Positions 1-63,564 of a DNA stretch of 64,000 nt are shown in pieces. The notes beneath the pieces were generated by a model. It made no database searches and was not told where the DNA came from. It was given only the letters and a program-made list of their open reading frames with translations. The stretch comes from Sclerotinia nivalis (taxonomy: Eukaryota; Ascomycota; Leotiomycetes; Helotiales; Sclerotiniaceae), in NCBI GenBank assembly GCA_029531795.1, contig JAPEIS010000003.1:2728001-2792000 (forward strand). The letters are read 5' to 3'. Positions within the stretch are counted from its first letter, which is position 1. Each line of letters begins with the position of its first letter. A program made the position numbers and the translations under genes.

Positions 1-1872
1 ACTAGTACTGGGCCCTGTTTCGCCATCAAGCCGAATACGAATTGATCGATTTGTAGAGAACGATTGAATCCATCGAACTAGATTATCAGGCCATCCTTGT
101 TCTCTGAGTCGACGAACTAAGCGTCCTGGGAGAACAGCATCAAAAGCACCTTTGATATCCATAGTTAATAAAGTAGCTTTAGAACCTGAATTCAAAGCCA
201 TTTCCACATCATGTGTAAGGCAAGTTGTGAGATCGACTGATGAACGCAGGGGAAGTGCTCCGAATTGTTGCTTGGCTAGTACTTTGAGGGTTATAGCAAT
301 CCAGGACATCTTCTTTGCAATCAAACGTTCGAGACCTTTTCCTAATACTGAGAGCAGGGCTATTGGTCTATAAGATCTAGGACTTGTGCGATCTGATTTG
401 TTCGGTTTCGGAACGATGGCTACAATCGCTGATCGGAAGCATTTAGGATGGTGACCTATTTCGAGGCATTTTTGAAAGAGTTGTAAGATATATGGTTCGA
501 TCAGTGGCCATGCTAACTGTAGGATCTTGGTAGGGATCTCGTCTATTCCTGGAGCTGTATTACCCGTACGAAGGATAGCAGTTTGAATATCCTGAATTGT
601 GATAGCAGGAAAGGCAATTGAACGAATGGAAGTTGAAGGCGAATCAAATGGGATATCGTTAACTTCAGCTGTATTGGTTAGCAGATTATTGATGAGTAGA
701 TCTCTTTTAGTTTGAATTGTTGTAGCAAGAGAATGATCTAAAGGATCTACTAAAGGAGGAGTTCGATATGTTCCAGCTGATTGATGCCATTTTGTCATTT
801 TAAAGACATCTTTTATTTCCTTGACTGAATCAAGCTTAGAGAGCCAGAATTCCTTTTTCGCTTTTTTGACAACCTTTCGAAGATTTTGTTTTGATTCTGA
901 AGAGTTGTTCGTTCGGTTTTCTTGAACAGCTGTCCGGCAGGTCTCGTTCCACCATGGTTGACCTGTATTTCGGCCGAGTGATCTTTGAGCTGATCCTGTG
1001 TATGCTGATTGTAGAGCTTGAGTGATATCTAAAGCTAATTTATCAAGATCTGTGGTCGTGTTCAGAGCTAATAGATTTAGATTCAATAGATTCTCTGTTA
1101 ATAAAATAGAGAAGAGTTTTTCGTCTAATGTATTGATTCGGAGTCTTTGAATCGGGTCCTGAAACCTTGTATTCCAATTCAAAGTTGTCAATAAGGATCG
1201 ATGATCGGAAGTTGTATCCAAATGCGGTGCAGAAGTTGTATTGGCTGTATATGATCCTGAAAGAAAAACTAAATCGAGAACGTTGCCCAAATTGTGGGTA
1301 GGTTCACCGATTGTAGAAAGAAAATTGAAAGAATTTGTATCTAGCCAGATTGTAAAAGATTCTGCAGAATTTGAATATGAAGAACAAAAGGGATTCCATC
1401 TCGAATGATGAAGGTTTAGATCCCCTGCAAGAAGTGTAGAATTTAAAATATTCGAAGGTAAATCAAAGAGAGTTTGTATTGCTTGGTTTTCATTTGTACA
1501 ACCTCTAGGAGCATTATAAATATTAATGATTGTAAGAATAGAACCAGTTAAAGATTGAATTTGTAAAAATAATAAATCCCGGGAGGATACAGGCCGGAGC
1601 TGACTAGCTCGAATGCCTGCATTTTTCCGGGTATAAGACATCACACGAGGCCGGGTTTCCCAGTTGTCGAGTGGTGTGAAAGTTTCATAAGCAGGATGGG
1701 ATTTAGTGATTCGGTGTGAGATATCTGAGAATGTATAAGGTTCTTGAATCAGAATTATATCAATACAAGAATCATTGGCTAAGGAAAGTGCTAATTCGTG
1801 TAAAGTAGCGTTTTTAGCTACATTAGCTTGTAAAATGGTCAATGGTTTAGAAGATAATCTAGGATTATACAT
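1..1872 (-). CDS. LINE-B ORF2, partial, uninterrupted: endonuclease + reverse transcriptase N-half
   Basis: All 624 codons from the ATG at 1872 to the window edge read open; I checked nearly the whole stretch by reverse complement. The start overlaps the ORF1 stop in the octamer ATGTATAA. The N-terminus is an APE-type endonuclease with LQAN near residue 16, QEP near 43, AGDLNLHHSRWNPF near 150-163 and TSDH near 220. Reverse transcriptase follows, with PRSYRPIALLSVLGKGLERL at about residues 499-518 and the catalytic MDIKGAFDAVL at about 571-581. The missing part would hold the YADD box, RNase H and the C-terminal zinc knuckle seen in sister copies. The protein would nick target DNA and copy the element RNA. 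Homologous positions in other copies carry stops where this one has Trp, Gln or Arg. Whether it is functional cannot be judged without the 3' half. Confidence 0.9.
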   Translation of the reverse strand, partial: MYNPRLSSKPLTILQANVAKNATLHELALSLANDSCIDIILIQEPYTFSDISHRITKSHPAYETFTPLDNWETRPRVMSYTRKNAGIRASQLRPVSSRDLLFLQIQSLTGSILTIINIYNAPRGCTNENQAIQTLFDLPSNILNSTLLAGDLNLHHSRWNPFCSSYSNSAESFTIWLDTNSFNFLSTIGEPTHNLGNVLDLVFLSGSYTANTTSAPHLDTTSDHRSLLTTLNWNTRFQDPIQRLRINTLDEKLFSILLTENLLNLNLLALNTTTDLDKLALDITQALQSAYTGSAQRSLGRNTGQPWWNETCRTAVQENRTNNSSESKQNLRKVVKKAKKEFWLSKLDSVKEIKDVFKMTKWHQSAGTYRTPPLVDPLDHSLATTIQTKRDLLINNLLTNTAEVNDIPFDSPSTSIRSIAFPAITIQDIQTAILRTGNTAPGIDEIPTKILQLAWPLIEPYILQLFQKCLEIGHHPKCFRSAIVAIVPKPNKSDRTSPRSYRPIALLSVLGKGLERLIAKKMSWIAITLKVLAKQQFGALPLRSSVDLTTCLTHDVEMALNSGSKATLLTMDIKGAFDAVLPGRLVRRLREQGWPDNLVRWIQSFSTNRSIRIRLDGETGPSTS

Positions 1873-2338
1873 TAAAAGGAATTGGAAGAGGAGGAGCTTC
1901 TAATGTTATGAAACGATTAGAAAGATTAGAAGGGGGTGGTATCAATGAAGATAATATCGAAGGAGTTCGGATTGGAGTTGAAGGAGCAATAGGTTCTTCC
2001 ATAAAGGAATCGGCTTTTGGGGTTCGAGAGCATTTTGCATTAGCACAAGCTCTAACCCTAGCTTCTTTTGAGGTTTTCTGAATAGCTTGTTTTTCCGATT
2101 TGCTTTTGGGGCCTTTGTGAGTAAGACGAAGGGGGCAATGTAGATCGTCTGCAGGATGGGGGCCTCCACAATGTAGGCACCTCGCTGGGCAAGCATGGGT
2201 TGTATTGCATCGGGTTGAATGATTCTTTTCTGTATGTTCGGTTGTGCTACAGATTCGGCATCTTTCTGGACGAGAGCAAGCTCGAGTATTGTGCCATTGA
2301 AAGCATCGAGTACATTGGATTATCTTGGGTTTGACAGA
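1865..2338 (-). CDS. LINE-B ORF1 C-terminal fragment with three zinc knuckles (no start codon)
   Basis: An open stretch of about 157 codons ends at TAA 1867-1865. It encodes the nucleic-acid-binding end of the Gag-like ORF1 protein: three Cys/His knuckles (CTRCFQWHNTRAC, CRICSTTEHTEKNHSTRC, CLHCGGPHPADDLHC), then a basic tail. No in-frame ATG precedes the knuckles, because the N-terminal two thirds were replaced by the ribozyme-led module; a TAG stands in this frame just upstream of the join. ORF1 is therefore non-functional by truncation, although ORF2 behind it is intact. Full ORF1 in sister copies is 497 aa. The last 8 nt overlap ORF2, suggesting reinitiation or coupled translation. Confidence 0.85.
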   Translation of the reverse strand, partial: SVKPKIIQCTRCFQWHNTRACSRPERCRICSTTEHTEKNHSTRCNTTHACPARCLHCGGPHPADDLHCPLRLTHKGPKSKSEKQAIQKTSKEARVRACANAKCSRTPKADSFMEEPIAPSTPIRTPSILSSLIPPPSNLSNRFITLEAPPLPIPFNV

Positions 2339-2342
2339 GATA

Positions 2343-3464
2343 ATATTATATTTGCAAATCTATGAGTCTTTTACAGTATATCCAGTGAGACTACAAATAT
2401 AAGTAAGAGTAACCAATTCTTACCATGCTTTCCCAGATACTAGATGTCAGTCTCAGTATCCTTTGAGAAGGTTGCCCCCAAGCAAAAACAACCTTTCTAC
2501 ACCCATTATCCTGTTTGCTCCCTAAGCCTATCCGGTATCTCCATTGCCAACTGTTTTATACCCTATTATAGACCGATACGCGCATCCGTCCTCTCGAGCC
2601 GTATAGACAGTGTCACTGTCGCTGCCATTATACGCTACGCCCCGCGGCTTGTGCACCGTTTCGCGTTACCTTGCCAGATCTCTCCTACACAACAAGGCCG
2701 ACCGTATCTTGCAAGCTTTGCTGTATCTTAACCCCTAGCCAGGCAGCATAAAACACAGCGTTTCCAGCTCACTAACCAAAGCGCAATCTGCAAAATCCAT
2801 TCCCCCAATATATAATTTATAATCGACGATGCCGAGGGTTGAGAATGCATCATACATAAGCATCATAAGGTAGCCTCTGCCAAAGCTCATCCGCTGCCGT
2901 GATATCTGTCGAATGCTTCGCACAAGAGTGAAACTTGCTAAAAACGTCCCCCTCGTTCGAGAGTTCCTCCGCCGCTATGATACCGCTCTTGCACATTCGG
3001 TAGAGTAAAGTGCCAAAAGCGTCCCTCCATCCCTAATCCGCCTATATAAGATTCCATCCCAACCTTCGTACATCCTCAATTACTCCCCTTAACCATCTGT
3101 AAACTTCCAATCCAGTATACCCGCAGATTGTACGCATTGTTGGGTCGTGAAAACTCTGCACATCAGCGCCCCAGAGGTGCCCTGTCAATCGCTAGCACAA
3201 CGCTTTCCTTCTCAGGCTCTGCTCCCACACAGATTCGTAAAGGCAGTCCGCTTTGAAATGCTCCTTAAAGCATTTCTCAGGCTCTGCATCCCACTGCAGA
3301 TTCGTAAAGGTGGTTCCGCTTCGAATTCCGTCATTGTTTCGTTGATTGTCGGGTAGTTTTTATCTCCGTTCGACTGATAAATCCTCTGTTCCGGGCCCAA
3401 TTCACGATACCTTCACACCCAGTACCGCTCCTTTTTAAAGCACGACCTTTGCCCAGCTCCAGTC
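2343..3464 (-). repeat. Ribozyme-led 5' module, copy 1 (non-coding body)
   Basis: This stretch matches 45299-46390 in opposite orientation over nearly its whole length. Shared words include the TATCCAGT/CTCACTGG block at the inner end and ATAGATTTGCAAATATAATA at the fusion edge. Short reading frames on both strands do not align between copies and look accidental. Part of it is a tandem duplication of about 63 bp (3210-3263 and 3274-3323). It is GC-richer than the surrounding repeats. I do not recognise a protein or RNA family apart from the ribozyme at its 5' end. Confidence 0.75.
3210..3323. repeat. Tandem duplication of ~63 bp inside the 5' module
   Basis: Two adjacent units share TTCTCAGGCTCTGC, CAGATTCGTAAAGG and CCGCTT in the same order. 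The same pair is present, more mutated, near 45440-45560 in the second module copy, so the duplication predates the spread of the module. Confidence 0.7.
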
Positions 3465-3541
3465 TGATTCAATCTTGGCTCTGTAAATAAATTACAGGTT
3501 CGTAGGATGCACCACGTACAGGTGTTGAATCATCGCATCCC
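3465..3541 (-). ncRNA. HDV-like self-cleaving ribozyme, copy 1
   Basis: The minus strand folds into the nested double pseudoknot of HDV-like ribozymes. P1 is GGGATGC (3541-3535) with GCATCCT (3510-3504), 7 bp including the G1.U wobble. P2 is TGATTCAA (3532-3525) with TTGAATCA (3472-3465). P3 is ACC (3523-3521) with GGT (3513-3511), and L3 is TGTACGT. P4 is CTGTAA (3497-3492) with TTACAG (3486-3481). J4/2 contains GCCAAG, placing the candidate catalytic C at 3478. Predicted cleavage is immediately 5' of G3541, the edge of the repeat. Such ribozymes are known at the 5' ends of several LINEs, where they free the 5' end of the transcript. The fold is inferred by eye; activity is untested. Confidence 0.88.
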
Positions 3542-3627
3542 GAGCCAGTTTTCAGCGCAGCCGTGCTTGTTGTTTTACGCCACCTGATCACGTGTCACTG
3601 AGCCACTCTAGCCACTGCACAAACGCT
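3542..3627. other. Probable host (non-repeat) sequence, left part
   Basis: A short stretch between the ribozyme-led element and the target-site duplication of LINE-B. It has no match elsewhere in the window. Before the LINE-B insertion it would have been contiguous with 9520 onward. No gene is recognised. Confidence 0.55.
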
Positions 3628-3641: not shown

Positions 3642-3803
3642 CAACATCATCCCGACCTTCAACATTTTCGAAGAATTGAATTTTTTGAAAAACGCGTTTA
3701 TTATCGCATTTTATTGATCAATCGATCGTTCTTATCATCTATAGGATTTAAAAACGAAACTTTTCAGCCTCGGCAGGCGCTGTACGGACGCATTTCCGCC
3801 ACT

Positions 3804-5297: not shown

Positions 5298-8200
5298 TTC
5301 TAGATTATCTTCTAAATCATTGACCATTTTACAAACTAATATAACCAAAAACGCTACTTTATACGAATTAGCACTTTCCTTAACCAATGATTCTTGTATT
5401 GATATAATTCTGATTCAAGAACTTTATATATTCTCAAATATCTTACACTGAATCACTAAATCCCATCCTGCTTATGAAACTTTCATACCACTCGACAACT
5501 AGGAAACCCGACCTTGTGTGATGTCTTATATCCGGAAAAATGCAGGCATTCGAGCTAATCAGTTCCGGCCTGTATCCTCTCGGGATTTATTATTTTTATA
5601 AATTCAATCTTTAACTAGTTCTATTTTTATAATCATTAATATTTATAATGCTTCTAGAGGTTATACAAATGAAAATCAAACAATACAAACTCTCTTTGAT
5701 TTACCTTTGAATATTTTAAATTCTACATTTCTTGCAAGGGATCTAAACCTTTATCATTCGAGATGGAATCCCTTTTGTTCTTTACATTCAAATTCTGCAG
5801 AATCTTTTACAATCTAGTTAGATACAAATTCTTTCAATTTTCTTTCTACAATCGATGAACCTATCCACAATTTGGGCAACGTTCTCGATTTAGCTTTTCT
5901 TTCAGGATCATATACAGCTAATACAATTTCTGCATTGCATTTGGATACAACTTCCGATCATCGATCCTTATTGACAACTTTGAATTGGAATACAAGGTTT
6001 CAGGACCCGATTCAAAGATTCCGAATCAATACATTAGACAAAAAACTCTTCTTTATTTTATTAACAGAGAATCTATTGAATCTAGATCTACTAGCTCTGA
6101 ACACAATCACAGATCTTGATAAATTAGCTTTAGATATCACTCAAGCTCTACAATCAGCATACACAGAATCAGCTCAAAGATCACTCGGCCGAAATACAGA
6201 TCAATCATAGTGGAACGAGACCTGCCGGACAGCTGTTCAAGAAAACCGAACGAACAATTCTTTAGAATCAAAACAAAATCTTCGAAAGGTTATCAAAAAA
6301 GCGAAAAAGGAATTCTGGTTCTCTAAACTTGATTCAATCAAGGAAATAAAAGATGTCTTTAAAATAACAAAATGATATCAATCAGTTGGAATATATCGAA
6401 CTCCTCTTTTAGTAGATCCTTTAGATCATTCTTTTGCTACAATAATTCAAACTAAAAAAGATCTACTCATCAATAATCTACTAACCAATACAGCTGAAGT
6501 TAACGATATCCTATTTGATTCGTCTTCAACTTTTATTCATTCAATTATCTTTCCTGTTATTACAATTCAGGATATTCAAATTGTTATCCTTCGTATAGAT
6601 AATATAGCTCCAAGAATAAACGAGATCCCTACCAAGATCCTACAGTTAGCATAACTATTGATCGAATTATATATCTTATAACTCTTTCAAAAATGCCTCG
6701 AAATAGATCACCATTCTAAATGCTTCCGATCAGCGATTGTAGCCATCGTTCCGAAACCGAACAAATCAAATCGTACAAATCCTAGATCTTATAGACCAAT
6801 AGCCCTGCTCTCAATATTAGGAAAAGGTTTCGAATGTTTGATTGCAAAGAAGATATCCTGGATTGCTATAACCCTCAAAATACTAGCCAAATAACAATTC
6901 GGAGCACTTCCCCTGTATTCATCAATCGATCTTACAACTTGCCTTACATATGATTTGGAAATGGCTTTGAATTCAGGTTCTAAAGCTACCTTATTAACTA
7001 TAAATATCAAAGATATTTTTGATGCTGTTCTTCCAAAATGTTTGGTTCGTCGACTCAAAGAACAAGGATAGCCTGATAACCTAGTTCGATGGATACAATC
7101 GTTCTCTACAAATCGAACAATTTGCATTCGGCTTGACGGCGAAACAGGGCCCAACATTAGTATTGGATGTGGTTTGCTACAAGGCTCCCCAATTTCGTCT
7201 ATCCTTTTCATACTTTATATAGCCCCTTTGTTTTGATTAGGCAATCCTATTCGAAGATTTGGATATACAAATGATATTGTATTAGTAGCTTTTTCTTCAA
7301 ACTTACAATCTAATTGTGATCAACTACAATCCGAAATGCTGGAGGCTTTGGATTGGGGCAAATCTGAAGGGATCACTTTCGATCCTATAAAGTCTAAACT
7401 GATTCATTTCTTCAGAGGTTCCAGGAAAGGTATCGAAAGTCCTATTATCTATACAGAAAATCTTTCAATAATGGAGAAACCAAATCCATTAAAATGATTG
7501 GGGGTTTACTTCGATAGGGAATTGAATTTCAAATCTCATATCCAGATCCTTTCAATTAAGGCTTTTACAATTGCGAATGCATTGTGTTCGCTTGGAAGGA
7601 CAACCCGAAGTATTCTATCAATTTTGCTTCAAAGAGCGATTACAGTCTGTATTTTAAAGAAATGCTACTTTGCAGCCGAAACCTGGTGGTCTGGCCGAAC
7701 TAGGAAACGAGGTCTAAACTTCACAATCTCGAATCAAGTGGATGGACATTTGAAGCTTTTGAATAAAATTGTATTAACTAGCGCTCGAGTAATCCTCTCT
7801 GTATTCTGTACAACTAATACTGTTGCTTTATATAAGGAATCAAATCTGATGCCTCCTGAGATTGAGCTAAATTTGATATCCCAAAGCTTCACTGCCCGAA
7901 CGGCTCGGCTAGATCCTAAACATCCCCTTCGAATTCGAATCAAAAATATCCTAGCTAAAGCTGGGGCTAGAATTGCTGAATCAAGATTCTCAAGAATTAT
8001 CCTAGCTCTTCCAAAAGCTGAATATATCAATCCAATTGTTTTTTCCTCTTGGAGAAACAAAAAACCGCGTATTATTACAGAAACCCGGATCGGTGGCCCT
8101 CTCGATCATTCGAAGGAATGAGCAGTTAAGGATTTCGAAAGGTTTATATCTACAATTCCAAAAAGTGATTTGCAAGTCTTCTTCGATGGTTCGAAAAGCG

Positions 8201-24366: not shown

Positions 24367-25683
24367 TAAAGTCCACAAGCTGAAGGTTTTTTGTAATATG
24401 ATTTGTTATAATCGAATCCTTGACATTTATTATATTAAAAGGAAGAAATGGAAAAATAGAATCTTTCAATTTTGATACTAATACCAGCAATATATAGTCT
24501 TTTTCGAATAACTAATTCTGTTTCCTTTTGTATAGCAAATGTAATTACAATTACTCCTTCTTATTGATTAGCTCTTTTAGAAGTATTAATAAACCAATAA
24601 AAGATATCCATTATAATGAGCTTTGAATTGAAAATTTTAATTTCGTTTTTAATCAAGTTTATTCCTTTTGGATCAAAGAATTCCTTGATTGGGATCTTGT
24701 ATATAATCACTTTGTGCTATGGTTTATCGATTTGAAATCTTTCTGATTCGAGGATACGATTCCAGACTTCTTTTTTTTCTATAAAAAATTGTGTATTGAA
24801 GGGGCTATTAATGGTTAGGATAATATTGTTGCTTCTAATTATAATAATAGTCGAGATAACTGATCCATTGATGCCAGCCTTTTTGAAGGTTTCATTGATT
24901 TTGTTTCTTATATATAATAGTATAAAAAAATTGGATTGATGAAGAAATGAATTGATAAGGATTAATCGTTTGTTAGAAACATCATTCTTTTGTTTTACAG
25001 ATTTTTGTTTTGTAGAATTCCCTTTGGAAACTACTTTCCATTCCCCTACTGATTTGATAATAGTAATATAGTTTGCTTTGCCAATTGGTGAAGCGTTTGT
25101 TGAAGGAGTAATTGATTGATTAGAAAGATTAGAAAGATGATTAACTTGATTTTCAATCCTTTTGGTAACCTTTTCGAGATAGAAGATTTGTAATATAATA
25201 ATATTCGAAGTTTTTGTTAATTTTCCTTTTTCGAAATATTCATAGAATATTTCGATTAGATTTAGGATCTTCGATTGTTCTTCGATTTCCTTTTCCAAAG
25301 AAACAGCTAAAATAAAAAAATCTTTAGTTTTTTGAATAGCTTCTTTTGGTTTTGTAGAATTAGATCCTAATTGACTAAATTGCCGTCTTCGTTTGTTATT
25401 GATTTGGAATAATAAAAGATTAGTAAATAATTTGAAAGGATTATCAGAACTAAGAATATTATATTGAACTTAAGAATTGAAGGATTGAAAAGAAATTGAA
25501 TTAGAAAAAATAAATGGAGAATTGTTGAGGTTTTCCTTATATAGAAATAATACAATCTCCTCTTAAATTGGAATACCTAAGATGACTTTTGGAAAACTGA
25601 ATGGGATAATATCGATCATAATGGTCTTTTCGTTCATAATGGGAGGATAGAGAATCTTCGATTTTCATACGATTTTTTATATA
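24367..25683 (-). mobile_element. LINE-A 5' part (outer copy)
   Basis: Carries the leader and ORF1 of a minus LINE-A. The longest open piece is 24717-25298 (193 codons, beginning MEKEIEEQSKILNLIEIF), aligned to 39534-40115 in the copy at 38891. The zinc-knuckle part (24380-24480) is degraded. It is cut at GTGGACTTT (24367-24385 on the minus strand), where the R repeat starts, and at its 5' end meets a Gypsy-1 LTR at 25684. It is inactive and may be the other half of 11346-12182. Confidence 0.75.
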
Positions 25684-45221: not shown

Positions 45222-45298
45222 GGGATGCGATGATTCAACACCTGTACGTAGTGCATCCTACGAACCTGTAATTTATTTACAGAGCCAAGATTGAATCA
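45222..45298 (+). ncRNA. HDV-like self-cleaving ribozyme, copy 2
   Basis: Same fold as copy 1: P1 GGGATGC (45222-45228) with GCATCCT (45253-45259), including the terminal G.U; P2 TGATTCAA (45231-45238) with TTGAATCA (45291-45298); P4 CTGTAA with TTACAG (45266-45282); GCCAAG in J4/2 with candidate catalytic C45285. P3 has one mismatch (ACC with AGT) caused by G-to-A at 45250, so this copy may be impaired. The preceding base is the last base of the target duplication. Confidence 0.86.
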
Positions 45299-46390
45299 GA
45301 TTGGAGCTGGGCAAAGGTCGTGCTTTAAAAAGGAGCGATACTGGGAGTGAAGGTATCGTGAATTAGATCCGGAACAGAGGATTTATCAATCGAATGGAAA
45401 TGAAAACTACTCGACAATTACGAAACAACGATGGAATTCGAAGTGGAATTATCTTTACGAATCTGTAGTGGGATGTAAAGTCTGAGATTTGCTTTAAGAA
45501 GCATTTTAAAGCGGACTGTCTTTACGAATTTGTGTGGGAGTAGAGTTTGAAAAGGAAAACGTTGTGTTGGTGATTGATAGGGCACCTTTGGGGTGATAGT
45601 GTGTAGAGTTTTCATGATCCAATAATGTGTACAATCTGTAGGTATACTGGATTGGAAGTTTATAGGTGGTTGAGGGGAGTAATCGAGAATTGAGGACGGC
45701 GGCGATATAGTAGATTAGGGATGAAGGGACGCTTTTAGCACTTTGCTTTACGAATATACAAGAGTGTTATTATGGCAACGAAGGAATTCACAAATGAAAG
45801 GGACGTTTTTAGCAAGTTTCACTCTTGTGCGAAGCATTCGGCAAACATTATAGCAACGGATGAGCTTTAGTAGAGATCATTTTATGATATATATATATGA
45901 CCCTTTGTATTATCGATTACAATCTATATACTGGGGGAATGGATTTTGTAAGCTGTACTTTGGTTAGTGAGCTAAAAACGCTGTATTTTAAGTTGTCTGG
46001 CTAGGGATTAAGATATAGCAAAACTTGCAAGATACGGTCGGCCTTGTTGTGTAGGAGAGATCTGGCAAGGTAATGCGAAACGGTGTACAAGTTGTAGGGC
46101 GTAGTGTATAATGGCAACGATAATGATATTGTCTATACGGCTCAAGAGGACGGATATGTGTATTAGTTTACAATAGGGTATTATAGGATAGAAGGTATGA
46201 TAGAGATACTAGGTAGGCTTAGAGAGCAAATAGGATAATGGGTATAGAAAGGTTGTTTTTGGCCTGGGGGCAACCTTCTCGAAGGATATTAAGACTGATA
46301 TCTGGTATCTGGGAAAGCATAGTAAGAATTCGGTACTTTTACTTATAGTTGTAGTCTCACTGGTTTTGTTAAAAATATATAGATTTGCAA
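45299..46390 (+). repeat. Ribozyme-led 5' module, copy 2 (non-coding body)
   Basis: Matches 2343-3464 inverted, including the 63-bp tandem pair near 45440-45560 and the ATAGATTTGCAAATATAATATTAT edge. It carries more transitions than copy 1. No conserved reading frame is shared between the copies, so it is taken as non-coding. Confidence 0.72.
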
Positions 46391-49300
46391 ATATAATATT
46401 ATACCTGCCTATCGGCATCCCGACCCAATCAAGAGGCAATGTACTCGATCTAACTTTCATTTCCGAACCCTATACAGCAGTCACCTCCATAACAGATCAC
46501 TTGGACTGCACTTCGGATCACAAAATCTTAAAAACCCTTCTGTACTGGAACTGCTGTAGTATGAAACCTACTCGGAAACTAATGCTGAATACACTGGACG
46601 AAAAGCTTTTCACAGAACTCCTTTCAATGAAGTTGACTAATATCGAACCTTTAATAACTCTTCCTACCTTTATCGATCTAGACAAATTTGCTTTAGATAT
46701 TATACAATCCCTCAAAGAAGCATATACAGGTTCAGCAAAACGATCCTTGAACAGCCCCTTACAACAATCCTGGTGGAACGAAGATTGCATTCAAGCTTGC
46801 CGAAACTACAGAGCAGAAAACACAATCGAATCTAAACGATTATTTCGGAAAACGATTCGAAAAGCAAAACACTCCTTTTATATCTCAAAGATTGACAAAG
46901 TGGAGAAGATAAACGATATCTTCCGAATGGCCAAATGGCATCAGACTACAGGCGTATACCGGTCCCCCCCCTTAAAAGATCCTTCAACCCTCGAAATCGC
47001 AAACAACATTGAAGAGAAAAGACAAATACTTATCAAGAATCTTCTAACAAACACAACCGAAGTTGACGATATCCCTTTTGATATTCCGACAAACCCAACC
47101 AGAAACATCCCCTTCCCAGAAATCGATTTACAAAACCTGGAACAGACTATTCTTCAAACAGGCAACACAGCCCCAGGCACAGACGAGATCCCAACCAGGA
47201 TCCTACAAGTTGCTTGATTGTTAATCAAGGACCTTGTCCTTTTCCTTTATAAAAAATACCTAGAATTAGAACATCATTTTGAATGCTTTCGCCTCACCAC
47301 TACTGCGATCATCCCGAAACCTAGCAAAGCCGACTATACCAATCCAAGATCTTACTGTCCTATCGCTTTGCTTTCGGTTCTAGGGAAAGACCTCGAGAGA
47401 CTTATAGCTAAGAAGATATCATGGCTAATTATAAATTACAAGATATTAGCAAACCAGCAATTCGAGGCTTTACCATTACATTCTTCGATCGATCTTACAA
47501 TCTATATAATATATGATATCGAATCAGCCCTAAACAAAGGATTGAGAACCATTTTGCTTATTATGAATATAAAAAGCGCTTTTGATATAGTCCTATTAGA
47601 TCGGCTAATCAACAAACTCCGGGAACAAGACTGGCCAGACAATCTAATCAAATGGATTCAATCTTTCGCCACAAATCGCTTCATCAAAATCAGATTGGAT
47701 GGCGAAACAGGCCCAAAGATAGTATTGAATTGCGGTTTCTTTCAAAGCTCCCCAATTTCATTAATCCTGTTTATACTATATATAGCCCCTATCTTTTGGT
47801 TGGGTAATCCCTTCAAGAGATTCGGATATGCTGATGATATCGCTTTGATAGTTTTTTTCAAAAGCCTACAAGAAAACTGCGATGTGCTTCAAATCAATAT
47901 ACAGGAAACCCTTGATTAAGGAAAGTCCGAAGGTATCACCTTTGATCCTAAGAAATCCGAATTGATTTATTTCTATAGAGATCATATCGAATATACAAAT
48001 GTTTCAGCTATTCAAACAAATAGCTTGAAGATCGAAACTAAACCAGGCCCTTTTCGCTGGCTAGGAGTTTACTTCGATAGAAAACTGTGCTTCAAATTAT
48101 ATATCCAAATCCTTTCTACAAAAGCTCTCAAAGTTGCTAATGTATTATATTCATTCAATAATATCTTTTACGGAATCCCCCCTTATCTTACTAGACGAGT
48201 TGCTATTGTTTACACTTTAAAGAAATGCTATTTCGCATCAGAAACATGATGGCCGGAACGCTTCAAACATAAGAGCCACACTTCTGATCTCAAAGTCTCG
48301 AACTGAATCGATAATCATCTGAATCTATTAAACAAAGTGATCCTGACTTACACAAAAACTATCTTACCGATTTACAAGACCACCAATCTGGCAGTATTGT
48401 ACGAAGAATCCAAACTCAGACCAGCAGAGATTGAACTAAACTTATCATCCCAACTCTTCGCTATCTGCACTATCAAACTTGACCTATACTATCCCCTCCA
48501 GTTAAAAGCCAACACGGCGAAACCCTATATTAGACAGCTCTCAAGCTCAAGATTTGCAAGATTCATTACAGCTATACCTCTAACGAAACAAATAAATCCT
48601 TTAGCCTTCCCTCTATAAAACTACAGGGAATTCAGAACTGAAACCAAAACACATATTATCGGCCCAAAGGGAAGATCAAAAGTTCAAATAACTAAAGACT
48701 TCAAAACCTTCTATACTTCGATTTCAAAAAATGATCTACAAATCTTCTTAGATGGTTCAAAAAGCGAAAGCAAAAATGAAACTATAAGAGATAGCTACAT
48801 TATCATTTAATACAATATACAGATAACCCATCACTCGTTCTCACTAAATCTCAATACCGAAATATTCGATGCTGAAGTTACAACAACAACTAAAAGAGCA
48901 GCAACAACTATAGTTCAACCCTCGGCCAGATTTGCCAAAGATCTCTGGATATTTCTAGACAACTATGAAGTGATCTTGCGATTAGATTCTCACTTCAACG
49001 ACTCATCCCAATCGGTCTTTGACGAATTCTTAGACCTCTTTCGAGCCTGGGCACAAAGACCTAGACTCCCACATCTACCCCCCAACGAAATTCACATCCG
49101 CTAGATCCCAAATCATCTCAATATCCCTAGAAACGAAACAGCAAATAAAATTGCAAAAGAAAAAATAACACTTCCTCTCCCCTCTAACCCGATTTGCACT
49201 CTAGCATCATTCAAAAGATTAGCCAAAACCAACGCCCGTAAAGCTAACATTCAACTATAGAACACTATAAACCCTCAATATTACAAGAATCTATTATATA

Positions 49301-62439: not shown

Positions 62440-62452
62440 AATTGGTATGTAT
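62440..62452. repeat. Target-site duplication, left (chimeric element 3)
   Basis: AATTGGTATGTAT, identical to 63552-63564; both copies are Gypsy-2 gag sequence. Confidence 0.9.
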
Positions 62453-63551
62453 GATTGATTGATTGATGATTGATTGATTGATTGATTTAACGTCCACACT
62501 GAGTCTAAGACTATCTAGGACGGCTAGGGGCTCTATGAGCTCCTAGTTGATGCTATGGGGAGTTGTATGCTAGCTAACATACAGTTTGTATAGTTTGGGT
62601 TTCTTTTCAACCCTTGAAATGTTGATTGAGGGCAAGTGAAAACTAATACTGGGGAACAAAGCCCGATATCTTCATCCTCTAAGACCTTTCCTTCCTCGCT
62701 CTCCCCCTACCCCTTGCTAATTAAAGCATCCCACTGATATAATCTTCTTCTTCGACCCAATCTGCTATTCCGACACCACTTCCCACAAAGGTCAAGAGTC
62801 ATCTCCGTCAAGATTACCTCCAGCACAGCAAAAGGGTCCTCATACTAATGAAAAGCAACTGGAAGGCACCACTCTCCTCAGCTCGAACTCATTCATTAGC
62901 TCCTTTGCATGCCTTCCTAGGTGTGATGATCTCCAGCTTTGTTTGAATGTAAATAATCGAAACCGCCGAATGGAATATCGGTCATTTGAATGTAATGATA
63001 GTGGGGCGTGGCCCTAACCCTACCCACACACGCACAAAAAATATTTTCGTAAAATCGAGGAAAAGGCGTAATATCGTATCGATGCCCAGAGCATAGCATT
63101 AGTTGATAGATGATGGTATTCTCTGTTTCGTGATAATCGTAGTGTTAAAATGAATGTGTTTTCGATAATCGATTGTCGAAAAAAGGTATAAAATGCGAAT
63201 AAAACAGTAGCAAATTCCGTATCGAAAAGACCCTTCTGGAATAGAAGGGACTTACTAGGCGTATCATACCTCGTATTGAGGTAATAGTCGATGGCAGATG
63301 TTGAATCTAACCAGGGCTTCTGTAGCCATCGTCCGTATTTTGGGTTGATGTTCGTTCATCCTTTCGAAGATATTGATGCTGTAAAATCGTAATAACCCCT
63401 CCATCGTGAATATCGTAATCGGGAAACCCTCTCTCTCTCTTCCAATGTATCCGATTCCATCAAATGACTCAATCTTAGCTCTGCAGACTCTCAATAGAGA
63501 GCTGGAGGTTCGTAGAGGGCACCACGTACAGGTGTTGAGTCTTCGCCCTCC
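62453..63551 (-). mobile_element. Chimeric element 3: ribozyme + unknown body + LINE-A 3' end (1099 bp, non-autonomous)
   Basis: A 13-bp perfect duplication flanks it. In element sense: HDV-like ribozyme (63551-63466), a body of about 800 bp (63465-62666) with no match elsewhere in the window and no convincing reading frame, then 213 bp of LINE-A 3' UTR (62665-62453) ending in the ATTG/AATC repeat. The LINE-A tail implies mobilisation in trans by LINE-A proteins. The body has normal GC and no RIP look. It may derive from a host transcript or another repeat. Confidence 0.88.
63466..63551 (-). ncRNA. HDV-like self-cleaving ribozyme, copy 3
   Basis: P1 GGAGGGC (63551-63545) with GCCCTCT (63520-63514): 7 bp ending in G1.U, with different bases from copies 1 and 2. 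P2 GACTCAA (63541-63535) with TTGAGTC (63472-63466). P3 ACC with GGT (63533-63531, 63523-63521). L3 TGTACGT is unchanged. P4 is longer, CTC.CAG.CTCTC-tatt-GAGAG.CTG..GAG (63507-63479). J4/2 GCTAAG has candidate catalytic C63478. G63551 abuts the target duplication. Covariation in P1, P2 and P4 with an unchanged core supports the fold strongly. Confidence 0.9.
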
Positions 63552-63564
63552 AATTGGTATGTAT
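63552..63564. repeat. Target-site duplication, right (chimeric element 3)
   Basis: AATTGGTATGTAT, identical to 62440-62452. Confidence 0.9.

Follow-up and report, generated by a model that had tools for sequence, protein, structure and literature searches.

Non-autonomous retroelements of Sclerotinia nivalis headed by a probable self-cleaving HDV-like ribozyme

Features of the locus

The window, a stretch of 64,000 nucleotides from Sclerotinia nivalis (contig JAPEIS010000003.1, positions 2,728,001 to 2,792,000 of the forward strand), contains two copies of a ribozyme-headed non-coding module that runs into LINE sequence (copy 1 and copy 2) and a SINE-like element headed by a related ribozyme of a second type. 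The features are listed below; G1 is the first base of each ribozyme, TSD stands for target-site duplication, and individual loci compared in the genome are cited by L numbers.

1..2334, minus strand: 5'-truncated LINE part of copy 1, recognised by its junction, open frame and Pfam matches; the remainder lies to the left of the window.
2335..3541, minus strand: non-coding module of about 1.2 kb, copy 1, in the extent common to 24 of 31 copies, which starts at G1 and closes with ...ATATTAT and a CTG-like end.
3466..3541, minus strand: HDV-like ribozyme of copy 1, recognised by its anatomy, a match to RF02682 (22.2 bits, below the cut-off), the strict descriptor and covariation.
3541-3535 with 3510-3504, minus strand: P1, GGGATGC with GCATCCT, 7 bp, first pair G1·U.
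3531-3525 with 3472-3466, minus strand: P2, GATTCAA with TTGAATC, 7 bp.
3523-3521 with 3513-3511, minus strand: P3, ACC with GGT, 3 bp.
3520-3514, minus strand: L3, TGTACGT.
3473..3480, minus strand: J4/2, AGCCAAGA, which includes GCCAAG, with the candidate catalytic C at 3478.
3542..3554, minus strand: 5' TSD of copy 1, a 13-base exact repeat, TGAAAACTGGCTC, that abuts G1; none of 200 shuffled flanks gave a match as long.
45222..45297, plus strand: ribozyme of copy 2, at the head of the same module; 102.1 bits with model R1.
45222..46407, plus strand: second copy of the module; the LINE sequence behind it has an ORF2 57% identical to the copy 1 ORF2.
62453..63551, minus strand: SINE-like element of 1099 bp with a second-type ribozyme head, a LINE-like 3' end and an (AATC)n tail.
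63466..63551, minus strand: second-type ribozyme, P1 GGAGGGC/GCCCTCT, G1 at 63551; matched by the strict descriptor and, at 90.1 bits, by model R1, in whose alignment this sequence is itself a row.

Fold and scores of the copy 1 ribozyme

Read from 3541 to 3466 on the minus strand, the sequence can form the double pseudoknot of HDV in the order P1-P2-P3-P1'-P4-P2', with CTGTAA/TTACAG as P4. The GU of L3 can in addition pair with the AC of J1/4, a pairing that presumably occupies the place of P1.1 in HDV, and we take the C at 3478 in J4/2 to be the equivalent of HDV C75/C76. Cleavage is predicted between 3542 and 3541, that is, 5' of G1. An earlier sequence-only reading of this DNA had described the helix order, the 7-bp P1 with its G1·U pair, the 3-bp P3, L3 TGTACGT and GCCAAG before P2', all of which were found again on the minus strand. 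It had placed the ribozyme at 3465..3541; the G1 end at 3541 stands, and 3465 lies one base past the end of P2' at 3466. By its fold, copy 1 is confirmed as an HDV-like ribozyme, and it is predicted to cleave itself.

The searches proposed in the same reading had mixed outcomes. With Rfam, RF02682 (HDV-F-prausnitzii) matched over its full length and at the same ends, 3541-3465, with 22.2 bits and an E value of 0.026 (201 bases scanned at E up to 10), a score below the gathering score of 44 bits. The only other Rfam match at E up to 10 around copy 1 was a snoRNA, taken as chance, and at the gathering cut-off there were no Rfam matches across the whole 64-kb window. Among 11 further loci scanned, three (L054, L064, L065) matched RF02682 at 23.5 to 24.6 bits, all below the cut-off, and the GGAGGAC type described below, L052 and L053 gave no match; the curated cut-off is reached by none of the ribozyme types scanned (22.2 to 24.6 bits versus 44, where there was a match). 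Since RF02682 at E up to 10 also matches in 8 of 14 control genomes, its score alone is weak evidence. Across the genome of S. nivalis, where 61 of 1868 candidates were scored, it matched one place outside the ribozyme copies, at chance level; the higher-scoring copies do not appear in this result because they evidently lie outside the 61 scored candidates. The score below the cut-off restricts the database label and leaves the fold untouched.

As regards structure-based motif searches, 681 shuffles of the window gave an average of 0.86 matches each to a relaxed descriptor, so helix order by itself proves nothing. Its only other match in the window, at 25391 on the plus strand, was dropped, the descriptor being no better than chance. 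The strict descriptor (7-bp P1, L3 of 7, P2 of 6-7 bp, GCNAAG) matches the window twice, at 3541 and 63551, versus 10 matches in 1086 shuffles. It is passed by 27 of 45 copies, always at their own G1, and failed by 18; beyond these copies its single match in 229 kb is a further genuine site, within L034, and no matches were given by the reversed control. The frequency of the relaxed helix order and the low Rfam score are what a chance resemblance of a single sequence to the HDV fold would lead one to expect, but diverged families carry the fold at the same place with compensatory changes, and such a coincidence is extremely improbable. The decisive support is comparative and is provided by the sequences of the copies, their compensatory changes and the boundaries of the elements.

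Copies, covariation and conservation

The copy 1 stretch has 37 matches in the genome (50.3 Mb, 31 contigs), and the ribozyme core occurs 201 times at up to two mismatches, versus twice for the reversed pattern. Among the first 100 core places listed, P1' is GCATCCT, GCCCTCT or GTCCTCT, plus one GTCCTTT, and at the 45 loci for which the 5' side was compared P1 changes with it (GGGATGC, GGAGGGC, GGAGGAC). P2 is found as GATTCAA/TTGAATC, as GACTCAA/TTGAGTC and, in L053, as GACTCT/AGAGTC, with mismatches in some copies. A viral contigs database gave no matches to the core; the single bacterial match in a genome contigs database (L067) was rejected, with neither P1 nor P2 seen in its surroundings.

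Covariation was assessed in an alignment, A2, of 33 distinct rows, comprising 32 loci (one of them as the window copy) and the window sequence at 63551. Thirteen loci stand outside A2: 11 are identical in letters to some row, and two were dropped, L039 for its altered first bases and L051 for an internal deletion. In A2, 97.8% of cells are paired, versus 32-44% when the partner is slid. Two-sided change is found in 47 cells, versus 18.3 +/- 3.4 after shuffling, and the covariation score is 0.291 versus 0.182 +/- 0.011, with none of 500 shuffles as high in either case. Two of the five covariation measures do not exceed the shuffles, namely how many pairs show two-sided change (6 versus 5.4; 200 of 500 as high) and how many further pair types occur (17 versus 17.5; 482 of 500 as high). 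By helix, P1 is paired in 99.1% of cells with two-sided change at four of seven pairs, P2 in 97.8% with two-sided change at two of seven, P3 in 96.0% with none, and P1.1 in 95.5% with one-sided changes only. G1·U is present in all 33 rows, and column 18, the extra nucleotide between P2 and P3, is C or T. J4/2 reads GCCAAG in the copy 1 type and GCTAAG in the other ribozyme types, and one or the other is present in most rows, giving the C followed by As expected in J4/2 of an HDV-like ribozyme; in L040, L046, L049 and L063 the candidate catalytic C is replaced by T.

Within the module, divergence is lowest over bases 1-77: 0.7% versus 5% or more elsewhere in 11 copies with little decay, and 4.7% versus 12.5% or more elsewhere in 22 copies. 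However, because C/G-site decay climbs gradually from the 5' end of the module and 42 other 77-base windows are also free of subfamily differences, this low divergence is weaker evidence than it appears and is partly positional. As a separate observation, C-to-T and G-to-A decay, the pattern expected of repeat-induced mutation, is seen in many copies, and in the ribozyme of copy 2 P3 is broken by a G-to-A change at 45250 (plus strand).

The 5' boundary and target-site duplications

When 31 module copies are aligned at G1, the commonest base accounts for 39% of copies at -1, 42% at -10 and 97% at +1. The copies share nothing upstream of G1 and agree from G1 on, and the predicted cleavage site is therefore the 5' end of the element. 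Of 20 long copies, 9 have a TSD; eight of these TSDs, of 11-15 bases, abut G1 exactly, and that of L023 is longer, contains a CA run and ends one base short of G1. Shuffled flanks matched the TSD length in 0 to 3 of 200 cases. The other 11 long copies have no convincing TSD, with either none or 8-base matches no better than shuffles, and a weak AT-rich match in L046 was left uncounted. The partner of the copy 1 repeat lies at element position 5887, to the left of the window. L038 and L043 are a single insertion, duplicated together with its flank. Further TSDs, within 0-2 bases of G1, are present at L054, L055 and L057. The aligned copies and the TSDs bear out the earlier proposal that the ribozyme heads the element, and they place the predicted cut 5' of G3541 at the element boundary.

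Elsewhere in the flanks, the 5' flanks of L023, L042 and L048 share about 230 bases among themselves, stopping short of G1, and the 5' flank of L023 resembles a LINE 3' tail.

The module and its LINE joints

The 3' end of the module is reached by 24 of the 31 copies, about 1.19-1.23 kb from G1 (further in L041, whose module is longer), and reads ...ATATTAT followed by CTG or CTGCC. Behind it, 22 of the 24 copies match LINE nucleotide sequence in the local sequence set and L041 matches LINE protein, so that 23 of 24 run into 5'-truncated LINEs; L046 gave no match behind the module 3' end. The joints differ in all 24; that of L042 lies at the very start of ORF1. The remaining seven copies stop short of the module 3' end within the sequence examined: the module of L028 is interrupted by a LINE in opposite orientation, L037 passes into LINE sequence at module base 160, L050 has a module 3' end 5.3 kb further on, and L038/L043, L045 and L051 run into sequence matching nothing. 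GCC or CC is frequent at the joints; by eye it is often present in the LINE as well, so this preference may partly be microhomology. Also by eye, at the junctions of L021-L049 most LINE relatives have a T immediately ahead of the joint. No solo copy was seen among the examined members of 27 genome matches to the module 3' end. A viroid- or retrozyme-like source was considered and rejected, as a tandem module-module joint had no matches at up to three mismatches.

The LINE part of copy 1 has an open frame from 1899, with the first ATG at 1872, which extends over 1270 codons in L021. Its ORF2 contains EN, RT and RNase H domains (Pfam; RNase H just under the cut-off), and the best named relatives are in Sclerotinia sclerotiorum (62%) and Blumeria hordei (48%). 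In a translated search, this ORF2 was matched in sense by 17 of 28 stretches, with identities from 100 down to 22%. In copy 1 and L030 the LINE is entered upstream of ORF2, in the others at points up to about residue 1088 of ORF2, and the last 400 bases of the nine TSD-bearing LINE parts sort them into at least three groups. On this sequence evidence, the module is without sign of LINE origin and is fused at varying points to at least three LINE groups.

LINE 5' ends were examined for two LINE groups, both from the window. In the copy 1 group, the LINE starts at a 5' end of its own near 3655 (plus strand), and neither by reading nor with model R1 was a module or ribozyme found before it; the starts of 39 of 42 matches of this group are scattered over query 96-116. 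A second LINE, which by eye resembles L032/L033 at its 3' end, reaches about 20590 (minus strand), upstream of ORF1, and model R1 found no ribozyme at this 5' end. The LINE at about 3655 is decayed, extends to about 9500 (plus strand), begins about 100 bp beyond the copy 1 TSD and points away from copy 1.

These 5' ends bear on a different origin, in which a single LINE would have the module as its native 5' end, with the copies as internal-deletion derivatives, like short non-autonomous R2 elements. Ribozymes are a usual 5' feature of some LINEs (PMC3774820), internally deleted derivatives are described for R2 (PMC3414825), and the joints of L042 at the very start of ORF1 and of L037 at module base 160 would fit. 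We nonetheless regard such an origin as unlikely, given at least three LINE groups by 3' end with ORF2 identities falling to 22%, a copy 1 LINE group with its own module-free 5' end and a second window LINE that begins without a ribozyme. The distinct module is thus preferred here. The sequence-only reading had placed the ribozyme at the 5' end of a retroelement with fused LINE sequence in a fungal host, which the copies and joints support; its term "LINE-derived" does not fit the ribozyme-headed part, a non-coding module of about 1.2 kb joined to several LINE groups.

SINE-like sister elements

The SINE-like element of the window is flanked by a 13-base TSD, ATACATACCAATT, at 63552-63564 and 62440-62452, and 65-67 bases near its 3' end are 89-90% identical to one LINE group. 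Its family has at least 45 matches in the genome, 42 of which begin at G1 and three of which are 3' pieces; 40 of 467 candidates were scored, so the count is a lower bound. Two related elements are nested in L034, a second-type copy of 1095 bp and a third-type element of 868 bp with P1 GGAGGAC, the only whole copy of its type examined; the two G1 positions are 4194 and 5697 (both minus strand), and each has a TSD of 13-14 bases at G1. Neither of the two nested ribozymes is a row of A2, and the GGAGGAC-type one has the letters of a row. L057 represents a further type, of 936 bp, with a TSD. A tRNA-derived head was rejected, as the 64-kb window contains no tRNA. Adjoining the SINE-like element is a DNA-transposon-like stretch, from about 62350 to about 60510 (minus strand), with a long reading frame between inverted repeats starting ACGTGGTTTATCAGCAGTCCGCCC.

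Conservation of the head of such elements could also reflect a ribozyme-like fold that does not cut and serves as a 5' promoter or protein-binding site of SINE-like elements. The trypanosomatid Pr77 is a 5' promoter (PMC8190864) that contains an HDV-like ribozyme (PMC4035085), so 5' conservation alone need not imply cleavage, and the failure of 18 of 45 copies to pass the strict descriptor points the same way. Against this, pairing is kept across three P1 and at least two P2 versions, G1·U is invariant in the 33 rows, the element boundary coincides with the predicted cleavage site and tRNAs are absent from the window; a non-cutting fold is therefore very unlikely. A ribozyme that cuts is the reading followed below.

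Comparison with known systems

The closest architecture is that of MINE of Magnaporthe grisea, in which WEIRD, a 1113-nt RNA of unknown function, is joined to a 5'-truncated MGL LINE (PMC2104539); deposited MINE transcripts carry the accessions EF585235-EF585237. Both systems combine a non-coding 5' part of about 1.1-1.2 kb with a variably truncated LINE 3' part and TSDs, no solo copies have been seen in either, and GCC is common at the joint in both; MINE joints favour GCC, and the authors saw no microhomology (PMC2104539). In contrast to MINE, for which PMC2104539 nowhere mentions an HDV ribozyme, the 5' part in S. nivalis starts with an HDV-like ribozyme, joins LINEs of three or more groups and is accompanied by SINE-like sisters. 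Also, the 5' part of MINE is reported as full length (PMC2104539), whereas 7 of 31 copies here miss the 3' end in the sequence examined. A search for a published primer at the 5' end of WEIRD found only one named for position 125 (PMC3978060).

HDV-like ribozymes are described at the 5' ends of R2, R4, RTE, L1 and the trypanosomatid L1Tc, NARTc and SIDER elements, and several of them cleave at the element boundary, the position predicted here (PMC3774820, PMC4035085). The trypanosomatid ribozymes are likewise present on short non-autonomous elements (PMC4035085). NARTc and its like are truncated versions of a ribozyme-bearing LINE (PMC4035085), whereas in S. nivalis two LINE 5' ends lack a ribozyme and the module is without signs of LINE origin.

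In fungi, Li and Breaker reported 230 HDV variants in 26 species (PMC5640933). These share with the present ribozymes the fungal host and an extra nucleotide, mostly C, between P2 and P3, and differ in having C-G at the cleavage site (PMC5640933), where all 33 rows here have G·U. The reported variants carry an E loop in P4, their gene associations are widely variable and the word "retrotransposon" is absent from the main text (PMC5640933). RF02682 shares the full-length match, UACGU in L3 and GCYAAGA; it differs in that the match is below the gathering score and the family is named after a bacterium. Among the literature results listed, which cover only a minority of subscription journals, no paper reports an HDV-like ribozyme on a composite or SINE-like retroelement of a fungus.

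Proposed mechanism and implications

Compensation that keeps the fold, a 5' boundary exactly at the predicted cut, TSDs and variable LINE joints are read directly from the sequences of the copies. Together they make it highly probable that the stretch is a self-cleaving HDV-like ribozyme whose G1 is the 5'-terminal base of a family of non-autonomous retroelements. HDV-like ribozymes on LINEs and in fungal genomes were known already, as were template-switched composites in Magnaporthe.

By analogy with the 5' processing of R2, R4, RTE, L1Tc and the short trypanosomatid elements (PMC3774820, PMC4035085), a read-through transcript would fold the ribozyme and be cut 5' of G1, with loss of the upstream sequence, and the element would thereby restore its own 5' end in each round. 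A LINE reverse transcriptase engaged in copying LINE RNA would then switch template near the module 3' end (...CTG or CTGCC), copying would stop at G1, and the joint cDNA would be inserted with a TSD abutting G1; the order of these events is deduced from the insertions. The SINE-like sisters, with their LINE-like 3' end, would, in the manner of SINEs, serve the LINE directly as template.

More speculatively, the module may exist as a discrete RNA in free form, its 5' end made by the ribozyme and its 3' end defined but lacking poly(A), which parasitises several LINE families by presenting that 3' end to reverse transcriptases while they are copying; WEIRD would be of the same kind, with an exact 5' end likewise produced by a ribozyme. 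We put this forward tentatively, as a possibility that falls short of being the favoured one.

If the ribozyme cuts, it would account mechanistically for the precise 5' ends of such composites, and the puzzle of WEIRD would become directly testable. It would then also be shown that a 5' ribozyme can act for hitchhiking RNAs independently of the LINE copying them.
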